From Acidobacteriota bacterium (lineage in GTDB: Bacteria; Acidobacteriota; Holophagae; Holophagales; Holophagaceae): DNA of 64,000 bases. Below, piece after piece: positions 5,178 through 31,621 of this stretch; positions within the stretch are counted from its first letter, which is position 1; each line of letters starts with the position of its first letter. The position numbers were made by a program, and so were the translations under genes. The notes under the pieces are model-generated. The model had not been told where the DNA came from, ran no database searches, and saw only the letters and a list, made by a program, of their open reading frames with translations. The stretch covers positions 124,001 through 188,000 of the forward strand of contig JACPYP010000022.1 of NCBI GenBank assembly GCA_016195985.1. Direction: 5' to 3'.

Positions 5178-5192
5178 GATCTTCAAATGGAC

Positions 5193-5293
5193 TTCACCCC
5201 GGAGGCACTGAGAACGCGGAGGAAGACGCACGGAGAAGAATGCACTTCTTTTCTCTGTGAAACCCTCTGCGGTCCCCGTGTCTCCATGGTGAA
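5193..5293. repeat. Long imperfect inverted repeat between ybaB and recR
   Basis: The left arm starts TTCACCCCGGAGGCACTGAG and the right arm ends GTGTCTCCATGGTGAA; the arms pair imperfectly over about 30 bases. A second inner pairing involves GCACGGAGAAGAA and TTCTTTTCTCTGTG. It resembles the elements at 48468-48562 and 57868-57905, which share a core of ACGGAG/CACAGAG type. This is a dispersed hairpin repeat, not a coding region. Confidence 0.7.
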
Positions 5294-5320
5294 TCTTGAT
5301 GCCCGTGCGGAGCCTGCGCC

Positions 5321-5920
5321 ATGAAACTGCCGCCACCCCTCGAGGCCGTGGTCGAAAGCCTCCAAAAACTCCCAGGGGTAGGCTCCAAGTCCGCCCAACG
5401 CATGGCCCTGCACCTGCTGAAGGAGGGGCCGGAAGCCATGGCCCACCTGGCCCGCCAACTGCAGCAGGCCGCGGAAAAGGTGGGGTTCTGCCAGATCTGC
5501 GGCGCCTTCACGGACCAGCCCACCTGCCCCATCTGCCTGGATCCCCGCCGGGACCCGGCCAGCCTCGTCATCGTGGCCGAGGCTTCCAACGTGCTCAGCT
5601 TCGAGCGCAGCGGCCATTTCCGGGGACGCTACCACGTGCTGGGGGGCCTCATTTCTCCCCTGCGCGGAGTCGGGCCGGATCAACTGCGCATCCGCGAATT
5701 GCTCAAGCGGCTGGAGGACGGCGCCATCCAGGAGATCATCCTGGCCACCAACCCCACGGTGGATGGCGAGGCCACCGCCAGTTGGCTGGCCCGCATGCTC
5801 GAGCCCATCGGCGTGCGCACCTCGCGCATCGGGCTGGGGCTCCCCATCGGCAGCGACCTCGAATACGCGGATGAACTCACCCTGGATCGCGCCATGGAAG
5901 GACGACGGCAGATCGGATAG
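5321..5920 (+). CDS. recR: Recombination protein RecR
   Basis: RecR acts with RecO/RecF to load RecA at single-strand gaps. The 199-residue protein shows the N-terminal helix-hairpin-helix (LPGVGSKSAQRMALHLL), a four-cysteine zinc finger (C57-x2-C60-x8-C69-x2-C72) and the Toprim domain (VIVAEASNVLSFE, then ATNPTVDGEATASWLARML). It ends GRRQIG-stop. The 73 bases encoding the C-terminus (5844-5916) occur again, identically, at 6015-6087, where the frame would end GRRQIGL-stop against the convergent regulator gene. The present stop therefore appears to have been supplied by an insertion or duplication event. Confidence 0.95.
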   Translation: MKLPPPLEAVVESLQKLPGVGSKSAQRMALHLLKEGPEAMAHLARQLQQAAEKVGFCQICGAFTDQPTCPICLDPRRDPASLVIVAEASNVLSFERSGHFRGRYHVLGGLISPLRGVGPDQLRIRELLKRLEDGAIQEIILATNPTVDGEATASWLARMLEPIGVRTSRIGLGLPIGSDLEYADELTLDRAMEGRRQIG

Positions 5921-6087
5921 CCGATGGGGCCCCTTGGACTACCCCCCGATCGCACAGCGCCCCGCGCTGTGCTCCCGCTCTCCGGCTGCGCCGGTTCGCG
6001 GAGGGGGCCCCGTTCCATCGGCAGCGACCTCGAATACGCGGATGAACTCACCCTGGATCGCGCCATGGAAGGACGACGGCAGATCGG
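5844..6087. repeat. 73-bp direct repeat of the recR 3' end flanking a palindromic spacer
   Basis: Bases 5844-5916 and 6015-6087 are identical. The 98-base spacer (5917-6014) starts with the new recR stop. Inside it, GGGGCCCC palindromes sit near both ends (5926-5933 and 6004-6011). Between these are a perfect 9-base hairpin (GCACAGCGC at 5952-5960 with its complement at 5964-5972, loop CCC) and a smaller CCGG-CTGCG-CCGG hairpin. The second repeat copy has no start codon of its own and is a recR tail fragment. Confidence 0.93.
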
Positions 6088-6090
6088 CCT

Positions 6091-6768
6091 CTAGGGTTGA
6101 ACCGGTGGGATCTCCGCGAACAGGTACCTCCCGAACCATCCCGGGAAGGCTCGCGCCCAGGGCCGCCTGCCCTCGATGAGCAGCCCTGCGGATCGGGCTT
6201 CGGCGATGGAAAGATCACCTCGCCACCACCCGGTCAGCACCTGGAGCGGGGCGCGAACATGCAGGGCTTCGGGAAAACCAGGATTGTCCGAGCACAGCGA
6301 GACTTCGCTCCGGCGCAGGAGCAGGTAGCGGCGAGCTTCGCGCCGCCCAGCCCCAGAGACTTCGATGCGGACCAGGACCGGTTCGGAAGGAAGCGCTTCC
6401 GGCCTCACCCGTCGTTGCATGTCCCATAGGAGCGCCTCCAAGTCGAGTTCTCCACGCGGCAGGCTGCGGGGCAGCCATCGCTGGCCCCAGGTTCCAAGTT
6501 CACGGATGGTTCCAGCCAGCTCCATCCCGGCCGCAGTGAGGCGGTACGAAGGCCCCCTGGCTTCTTCCTCCCGCACAATCACGCCGCCGTCAAGCAGCTC
6601 GCGCAGCCGCGCCGAAAGCATGGTCCGGGAAATCCGGGGGATGCCCCGCTGGAACTCACCGAAACGGCGGCTTCCGCAAAGGAGTTCGCGCACGACGAGC
6701 AGGGTCCAGCGCTCGCCAAGAAGCTCCAGAGCGCGGGCGATCGAACAGAACTGGCCGTAGCTCTTCAT
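6091..6768 (-). CDS. HxlR-type winged-helix transcriptional regulator
   Basis: A 225-residue cytoplasmic regulator. Residues 1-95 form an HxlR/MarR-like winged helix (Cys8 near the start, LLGERWTLLVVRELLCGSRR, then RISRTMLSARLRELLDGGV). Residues beyond about 110 form a C-terminal domain of the kind often fused to HxlR domains and likely to sense a ligand. Start at 6768 was chosen for GAGG six bases upstream and the usual MKSYGQFCSIARALELLGERW opening. Its stop at 6091-6093 overlaps the stop of the displaced recR tail copy (6092-6094). It is divergent from the acetyltransferase at 6869, a possible target. Confidence 0.85.
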   Translation of the reverse strand: MKSYGQFCSIARALELLGERWTLLVVRELLCGSRRFGEFQRGIPRISRTMLSARLRELLDGGVIVREEEARGPSYRLTAAGMELAGTIRELGTWGQRWLPRSLPRGELDLEALLWDMQRRVRPEALPSEPVLVRIEVSGAGRREARRYLLLRRSEVSLCSDNPGFPEALHVRAPLQVLTGWWRGDLSIAEARSAGLLIEGRRPWARAFPGWFGRYLFAEIPPVQP

Positions 6769-6868
6769 GGCATACCTCGATTCCAGGCCAAGACCGGCGC
6801 AGTGCGGATTCCGGACTGCCTCGCTCCCTTTCCAGTGCTTATAGTCAGGCCTGGAGGCCGCTTTGACC

Positions 6869-7402
6869 ATGGACGACGATCCTCGAACCTCTTTTGCCGT
6901 CCGCGACGCGAAGCCCGACGAGTTCGATCGTCTGGGGCAGCTGATGGTGGCCGTCTACACCAGCCTGGACGGCTTTCCCAGTCCGGAGGAGCAACCCAAT
7001 TACTACGACATGCTGGCCCATATCGGCCTGATGGTGAAGAAACCGGGGGCAAGGCTCCTGGTGGCCATTGCCGGGGAAACCCTCCTCGGAGGCATCGTCT
7101 ATTTCGCCGACATGGCCCAGTACGGCTCCGGCGGCACCGCCACCCAGGAGAAGGCGGCCTCGGGCTTCCGGCTATTGGCGGTGTCCCCCGAGGCCCGCGG
7201 CATGGGTGTGGGGAGAACTCTGGCCGAGGCCTGCATCACCCTCGCCAAAGAGAGCCACCACCGGCAGGTGATCATCCACACCACCCGCGCCATGCAGATC
7301 GCCTGGACCATGTATGAGGGCATGGGCTTCCGGCGCTCCGAGGACCTGGATTTCATGCAGGGCGAACTGCCTGTTTTTGGTTTCCGGCTGGATTTGGCCT
7401 AG
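6869..7402 (+). CDS. GNAT-family N-acetyltransferase
   Basis: A 177-residue acyl-CoA-dependent acetyltransferase. The GNAT core is visible: LLVAIAGETLLGGIVYF (strands 3-4), then the acetyl-CoA loop LLAVSPEARGMGVGRTLAEAC (R/Q-x2-G-x-G/A type), then TMYEGMGFRRSEDLDF at the C-terminus. Substrate cannot be read from sequence. ATG 6869 is preferred over TTG 6863 because GGAGG at 6853-6857 is better spaced. It is divergent from the HxlR-type regulator. Confidence 0.85.
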   Translation: MDDDPRTSFAVRDAKPDEFDRLGQLMVAVYTSLDGFPSPEEQPNYYDMLAHIGLMVKKPGARLLVAIAGETLLGGIVYFADMAQYGSGGTATQEKAASGFRLLAVSPEARGMGVGRTLAEACITLAKESHHRQVIIHTTRAMQIAWTMYEGMGFRRSEDLDFMQGELPVFGFRLDLA

Positions 7403-30249: not shown

Positions 30250-31621
30250 ATCCGTTGTACGAGGTTTCCCGCACCAGCTCTCGGTACATGGCGAATTCGC
30301 CCTGGAAGTGGAGCTGGATGATGGCGGTGGGGCCGTTGCGGTGCTTCGCCACGATGAGCTCGGCGGAAGGATCGGGCTCCTCCGTGGCCGAGGGCATCAT
30401 CTTCCGGTGGATGAAGGCCACCATGTCCGCATCCTGCTCGATGGCGCCGGAATCCCGGAGATCGCTGAGCTGGGGGCGCCCGCCCGTGCGGTGCTCCACT
30501 TCGCGGTTCAGCTGCGACAGCACCACCACGGGAATGCCGAAATCCTTGGCCATGATCTTGAGGGCGCGGCTGATTTCGCCGATGCGCACCGCCTCGTTCT
30601 GCTTGGCGCCGCGGCTGCCTTCGGGGCTGCTGAGCAGCTGCAGGTAGTCAATGATGACAAAATCGATCTTCCGGTTGCTCTGGCTGCCCTGCTTCACGAT
30701 CATATTCCGGATCTGGGGCACGGTGATGGAGGCCAGGTCGCAGATGAACAAAGGCAGGTGCGTCATCTCGTCCCGGGTTTTCAGGACATGGTCCAAACGT
30801 CCCGTGGCGCGGCCGGACTGCAGGTCCTTCATGTTCGTCTGGCTCTTGGCGGAGAGCAGGCGCATGAAGACCTCCTCGTGGCTCATTTCCAGACTGAAAA
30901 AGGCCCCGCAGTGGCCCGGCTGGCCGTTCCGCTCCTCGGCGGCCCTGAGGATCCAGTTCAAAGCCAAAGCCGTTTTGCCGATGCCCGGGCGGGCAGCCAG
31001 CACGATGAGGTTGCCTGGCTGGAATCCCTGGGTCAGCTCATCGAAGCGGCTGAAGCCCACGCGGATGCCCGGGGAGAGACGGCCCTCCATGCGGTCCGCG
31101 AGCCGCTCCATCGCGTCGTCGGCCACCGCCTGGATGGACAGCAGCCCCTTGGCCTTGGCATCCCCTTGCGCCAGATGGAAGAGGCTCTGGGCGGTCTGAT
31201 CCACCAGGGTCTCCGGCGCCTCGTCCTCTTCCGCGGCCTGCCGGACCAGTTGGGCGCCGAGGTGCACGAGCCTGCGCAGCTTGGCCTTGCGGCGGATGAC
31301 GTCGGCCAGCACCTGGGGCCGCTCCACATCCTCGCCGGCGAGCAGTTCCACCAGGCCCGGATAGCCGCCCACCTTGTTGAGACTGTCGTCCTGGTCGAGC
31401 GCATCCTTCAGGGTGAGGGAGTTGACTTCGACCTGGGCCTCGATGAGCGTCTTCAGGGCGCGGAAAACCGCCCGGTGGGCCGGGTGGACGAAATCCTCCT
31501 CGGACAAGGAGAAGACCGCCTCGCTGGCGATGAAGCCAGCGCCCGGCGCACAGCAGGTGGCCAGAAACGACCGTTCTGCGTCGATATCCTCCGGAAGCCT
31601 TTCCGGAAGCCAGTCCGCCAT
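30248..31621 (-). CDS. dnaB: Replicative DNA helicase DnaB
   Basis: A 457-residue hexameric 5'-3' helicase of the replication fork. The N-terminal collar domain begins DIDAERSFLATCCAPGAG. The RecA-like motor has Walker A AARPGIGKTALALNW, the H1a-type loop ending SLEMSHEEVFMRLL, Walker B FVIIDYLQLLSSPEG and VVLSQLNREVEHRTGGRPQ with an arginine-finger region DLRDSGAIEQDADMV. No intein is present. ATG 31621 is preferred over GTG 31627 because GGGAG is better spaced. Confidence 0.96.
   Translation of the reverse strand: MADWLPERLPEDIDAERSFLATCCAPGAGFIASEAVFSLSEEDFVHPAHRAVFRALKTLIEAQVEVNSLTLKDALDQDDSLNKVGGYPGLVELLAGEDVERPQVLADVIRRKAKLRRLVHLGAQLVRQAAEEDEAPETLVDQTAQSLFHLAQGDAKAKGLLSIQAVADDAMERLADRMEGRLSPGIRVGFSRFDELTQGFQPGNLIVLAARPGIGKTALALNWILRAAEERNGQPGHCGAFFSLEMSHEEVFMRLLSAKSQTNMKDLQSGRATGRLDHVLKTRDEMTHLPLFICDLASITVPQIRNMIVKQGSQSNRKIDFVIIDYLQLLSSPEGSRGAKQNEAVRIGEISRALKIMAKDFGIPVVVLSQLNREVEHRTGGRPQLSDLRDSGAIEQDADMVAFIHRKMMPSATEEPDPSAELIVAKHRNGPTAIIQLHFQGEFAMYRELVRETSYNG

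Follow-up and report, generated by a model that had tools for sequence, protein, structure and literature searches.

At the 3′ end of recR, the 64,000-nt stretch of Holophagaceae DNA analyzed here (the window) contains a member of an undescribed family of tiny elements of the Geothrix group that form hairpins and encode no protein. A covariance model built from 42 element cores finds the family in all 47 genomes searched of Geothrix, the genus of the window, with 1–39 copies each and ~690 in total (sum of the table), at the ends of conserved genes including housekeeping recR, miaB, sodB, and tRNAs. Each typical copy is enclosed by a direct repeat of the end of its host gene. On balance, we favor the reading that the family is a homing-like mobile mini-element, free of any protein of its own, which brings or duplicates a gene end.

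At recR, an exact 73-nt direct repeat (5844–5916 and 6015–6087, 100% identity, 171 bp from start to start) surrounds a 98-bp spacer (5917–6014). The repeat comprises 24 codons and is almost exactly the RecR_C segment of Pfam (residues 173–196). The gene itself (5321–5920, plus strand) is an intact open reading frame (ORF) with RecR Pfam domains including RecR_C. It uses the first 3′-end copy, X_A (5844–5916, plus strand), which ends in ...ATC GGA TAG (TAG at 5918–5920) and completes a normal RecR of 199 residues. The second copy, X_B (6015–6087, plus strand), reads on into the old gene end CCTCTAG (6088–6094, plus strand) as ...ATC GGC CTC TAG, and its stop codon (6092–6094) overlaps the stop codon (6091–6093) of a convergent HxlR-type regulator gene. 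Based on the repeat, the empty sites in relatives, and the divergence between the two copies, X_B is probably the displaced native end. GGGGCCCC is found at either end of the spacer, with two hairpins within. Re-reading of the sequence confirmed the repeat, its offset, the stops, the end palindromes, and both hairpins as given in the initial annotation. The repeat is not a product of chance, since its flanking-repeat score is 146 and a score of 50, the control threshold, is reached at only 1 of 363 positions drawn at random from comparable loci.

The insertion point lies between 5843 and 5844, where the direct repeat starts, within a target junction u|x (5836–5851, plus strand) of sequence GGGGCTCC|CCATCGGC. 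An inverted copy of this junction, GCCGATGGGGCCCC (5920–5933, plus strand), directly precedes the core and is paired with 5836–5851 in the predicted fold. The core (5934–6014) abuts X_B and scores 98.8 bits with the covariance model; its structured strand is probably the minus strand. One further match in the window (30447–30518) is at chance level.

Further searches showed that the 81-nt core of the spacer belongs to a dispersed double-hairpin family. Probing the window's own genome with the spacer by BLAST, as the initial annotation had proposed, revealed three more copies. Two of these lie in genes for an ABC ATPase and a sensor kinase, each flanked by a duplicated 3′ end of its gene; with the covariance model, this genome has 15 core copies. 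BLAST for the core across Geothrix was positive in 44 of 47 genomes. Within a sample of the phylum, matches to the covariance model extended to three sister genera and to three genomes from a different family. The sister-genus copies (G152, at a tRNA, G169, and G208) have flanking repeats, except for one of the four G169 copies read. Of the three genomes from the other family, G163 has a copy with a flanking repeat and the copies of G064 and G092 have none. The G163 copy (locus L262, G163:C136:3006-3082) is a full element with a 47-bp duplication of a start-codon end, for which horizontal transfer or contamination is possible. The exact core pattern, scanned against named genomes, matched records of Geothrix and of other Holophagaceae/Acidobacteria, with a few isolated, chance-like matches elsewhere. 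No viral contig contained the exact core pattern, and a phage origin was rejected on this basis. Draft genomes probably hold more copies than were counted, because several draft contigs (at L105, L106, L108, L112, and L120) end in or near element arrays.

The anatomy of the element recurs at many genes. Flanking direct repeats of ~32–160 bp that score at least 50 on both sides were found for 83 of the 92 copies examined, the random control positions having been taken from the same loci. The parts follow the order u, X_A, link, inverted u|x junction copy, core, X_B, and downstream sequence. The right end of the core abuts X_B to within one or a few bases, while the left link is variable. The repeat starts at the end of the core and usually stops within a few nucleotides of a start or stop codon. 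About 24 unrelated target families were separated, which include recR, the start of miaB, the C-terminus of a gene resembling Xaa-Pro aminopeptidase (pepP-like), sodB, a RidA-like gene, the C-termini of an ABC ATPase and a histidine kinase, and tRNA 3′ halves. Apart from recR, which was identified by Pfam, target names were read from translated ends and are provisional. The proposal of an element aimed at gene 3′ ends was therefore too narrow, as miaB and other start-codon ends and tRNA genes are also used. In families with a clear frame, the insertion point is ~30–100 bp inside the gene and X_A ends a few bases from the stop or start codon. The distance from junction to gene end is constant within a family (77, 71, 65, 59, and 34 nt), and it is 77 nt in every recR copy with a frame called. 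A target-site duplication of random length is unlikely, because the length of the repeat does not vary within a target family and its far edge mostly coincides with the gene end. The orientation of the core to the host gene varies, being sense at recR, antisense at miaB, and reversed in the ABC family. Tandem arrays of the unit also occur, some with near-identical units.

The core is under structural constraint on one strand. Three helices, which at recR are P1 (5943–5947/6003–6007), P2 (5952–5960/5964–5972), and P3, an outer stem (5973–5978/5998–6002), are supported, with 96.4% of cells paired. Compensatory change was found in 96 cells altered on both sides vs 22.6 in shuffles, far above slid versions of the pairing. 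Among the unpaired departures, A.C is found in 22 cells vs 6 for G.T, and in the P2 stem with duplicates removed the counts are 15 vs 4. Since A.C departures become G.U on the opposite strand, it is probably the minus strand that is structured, either as RNA or as single-stranded DNA. The whole repeat folded as RNA is no more stable than its shuffles (z 0.05), so the support for the structure comes from covariation and not from energy. No match at the Rfam gathering score was found in 8 loci. In most families, the ~8–19 nt directly before the core are complementary to the first bases of X together with those immediately preceding it. The median complementarity score is 16 for a family's own junction vs 11 for the junctions of other families (99th percentile 18). 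In the miaB family, two shared mismatches to the junction would be G.U pairs as RNA. Within families the targets are nearly invariant, and guide-target agreement is 8.44 of 12 for own pairs and 8.61 for swapped pairs.

Comparison with the recR loci of relatives, another suggestion of the initial annotation, revealed empty sites in 36 of 43 scorable genomes, together with 6 filled sites and 1 scarred site (G002). In the scar, the link and inverted copy persist, but the core and most of X_B are gone. The spacer is thus not a unique, ancestral intergenic sequence, given that its core is a dispersed family and that the site is empty in most relatives. In a tree from recR and its neighboring genes, the filled genomes are scattered, mostly with empty sisters. 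Across species, cores at the same target are 89% identical and cores at different targets 69%. At recR and miaB, the history of the core is decoupled from that of the host. The correlation of core with species distance (Mantel r) is 0.01 for miaB and 0.06 for recR, vs 0.42 and 0.40 for the flanks. Moreover, at miaB the sister species G018 and G006 have flanks that are 95.5% identical and cores that are only 85% identical. These core comparisons are to be read with caution, because the initial collection of cores relied on similarity to the recR copy and because their structure also constrains their rate of change.

The two gene-end copies diverge in the manner of coding DNA. Differences between X_A and X_B number 28/23/112 at codon positions 1/2/3, with 82 synonymous vs 31 nonsynonymous codon differences. 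This spectrum (17/14/69%) resembles that of orthologues between species (19/17/64%) and differs from that expected of a relic in decay (p 4e-8; the expectation of 1:1:1.7 was set by us). An old, decaying X_B is thereby ruled out, and the predominance of third-position differences indicates that the displaced copy was coding until recently. The differences rise from ~2% beside the insertion point to 10–13% at the gene end (identity ~98% to ~87–90%), a gradient that co-conversion near the insertion point would produce, as would exchange with empty alleles.

Homing of this kind could work as follows. The unit consists of a gene-end copy (X_A), a short link, the inverted copy of the target junction, and the ~80-nt structured core. 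It sits at one fixed point u|x, 30–100 bp inside a conserved gene, so that u–X_A–stop would replace the old end and the native end would be displaced downstream as X_B. The unit may invade empty alleles by recombination with filled donor DNA, perhaps after u|x has first been recognized by pairing with the inverted copy, and it may spread between related strains. Loss could occur by recombination of X_A with X_B, giving a cycle of invasion and loss. A more specific form of this idea is guided, gene-preserving homing in bacteria, where the target-complementary segment would program the insertion site, the element would supply the replacement gene end, and a host factor would mobilize it in trans. 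This form is put forward tentatively and is, in our judgment, rather unlikely as it stands.

The main rival to homing is that the insertions are old, vertically inherited since the ancestor of the genus, and frequently lost in a precise manner by X_A/X_B recombination, with homogenization between copies and with empty alleles and no active homing. We regard this as a real contender of lower probability. It accounts for the presence of the G002 scar and the filled G044 site within one clade, which is descent within that clade, and for miaB being filled throughout G053, G048, and G019. Recombination between X copies is evident from the near-identical units of the tandem arrays, and the cores of families 3 and 4 correlate better with the species tree and appear more vertical. 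However, it requires 19 losses at recR and 16 at miaB vs 7 and 11 gains, and it does not explain the lack of relation between core and host distance at these two genes or an X_B that has diverged as coding DNA and not as a relic. Besides the G044 clade and families 3 and 4, several further observations weigh against homing. The structural constraint on the core slows its change, so that similarity across species is no proof of transfer. Within a genome, X_A and X_B usually cluster as sisters, with no clearly foreign X_A, and in a test for a foreign X_A beside a native X_B, the nearest empty miaB allele matches X_A more often than X_B (20 vs 12). The reversed core of family 6 (ABC) weakens the notion of a fixed guide scaffold, and the enzyme searches described below gave no candidate.

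A functional RNA kept for the host gene, such as a 3′ untranslated region structure, an antisense RNA, or a spliced intron-like unit, with X_B also in use, is improbable. Such a role would agree with the strong covariation, the strand bias, and the coding-type constraint on X_B. It is difficult to reconcile with the varying core orientation, the absence of the element from most orthologous genes of close relatives, and the lack of an Rfam match, and X_A would be superfluous for splicing. A plain tandem duplication was the alternative named in the initial annotation; limited to the recR end and enclosing an unrelated spacer, it would explain the exact 73-bp repeat and is refuted by the recurrence of the same core and anatomy at ~24 unrelated target families in 47 genomes.

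No enzyme was found that could serve the family as a whole. Y1 (HUH) transposases of the IS200/IS605 type (PF01797; RAYT) are present in 5 of 47 genomes and absent from the window's genome, and an identity as REP/RAYT was rejected because 42 genomes lack the transposase. Reverse transcriptase (PF00078) was detected in 15 of 47 genomes and is absent from the element-rich G018, G005, and G047. TnpB and IS110 were each detected in 6 of 47, although the window's genome has two IS110 copies. Reverse transcriptase, TnpB, and IS110 were rejected as general machinery, as each is missing from most element-bearing genomes. IscB had no match in any of the 47, but the control genomes had none either. The 98-bp recR spacer contains no integrase or cargo, and no homing endonuclease ORF was found, the inserts being too short for such a gene.

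Among the closest known systems are the mobile ORF (mORF) insertions of fungal mitochondria, with replacement of the carboxy terminus, found in Allomyces atp6 and in Glomus atp6, atp9, cox2, and nad3 (PMC3630166). Both insert within a conserved gene near its end, with the carried end fused to the host gene, the native end displaced downstream, largely synonymous differences, and a scattered distribution (PMC3630166); the Geothrix element shows each of these features, foreign origin of X_A aside. Unlike mORFs, which are organellar and have a homing endonuclease ORF (PMC3630166), the Geothrix element is bacterial, has no ORF, measures ~170 bp, contains a structured core and a target-complementary segment, and is also found at gene starts and tRNAs. 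In fungal and sponge mitochondria, double-hairpin and repetitive hairpin-forming elements are likewise tiny, presumably mobile, and scattered (PMC2800124). Those of Allomyces are described as having no flanking duplications (PMC2800124), whereas gene-end duplication is the hallmark of the Geothrix element. REP/REPIN sequences with RAYT (TnpA-REP) are also short, dispersed, hairpin-forming, non-coding, and possibly mobilized in trans; the Geothrix element differs in its fewer copies, its long gene-end repeats, and its position within gene ends instead of the intergenic space. Group I/II introns, IS110 bridge RNAs, and TnpB omega RNAs share an RNA-like structure beside a segment complementary to the insertion site, but the Geothrix element has no Rfam match, the corresponding proteins are missing from most genomes that bear it, and its guide role is putative.

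The initial annotation had compared the locus with attL/attR of an island that had lost its cargo. As in genomic islands and integrative elements, the insertion is at a gene end, the gene is restored by a carried end copy, empty sites exist in relatives, and tRNA 3′ halves are among the targets. The stub of a larger island was not borne out, as no long insertion was found between the copies in 44 recR loci or in ~110 other loci, and the core is itself a conserved multi-copy family. Unlike islands, one core family without integrase, cargo, or a shared att core serves many unrelated targets, and no integrase-type att identity is common to them. The literature search gave these mitochondrial analogues and no bacterial precedent in the open literature searched, nor was one found in Rfam. 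Interspersed hairpin elements of small size are known, as are homing elements that replace gene ends; their combination, bacterial and protein-free, was not found described.

If homing is true, the family would represent a protein-free equivalent, in bacteria, of the elements that replace gene ends in mitochondria, and the inverted target copy would point toward a new mechanism of insertion-site selection. If there is no homing, the family remains useful as a clear natural system in which to study the turnover of gene ends, precise excision, and concerted evolution. The elements also mislead annotation and break assemblies, several contigs ending inside arrays.

Some further features were also noted. 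At the miaB start in L219 (G041), L222 (G015), and L225 (G001), a different, apparently unrelated hairpin element is flanked by the 16-bp repeat GGATGTGGAACTTCAT and is common to distant species. At L004 (G000:C5:24616-24662), a core without a flanking repeat is in or beside a sequence that resembles a tRNA, close to a tRNA cluster; this may be a tRNA gene that was split or has decayed. In the window, genes for the HxlR-type regulator and a GNAT acetyltransferase (6091–7402) separate recR from a ferredoxin-like sequence, which in most relatives directly follows recR. Upstream, the intergenic gap between ybaB and recR (5180–5300) contains many words of the CGGAGGCAC/CGCGGAGG type and resembles another dispersed repeat, as does the same gap in G020.
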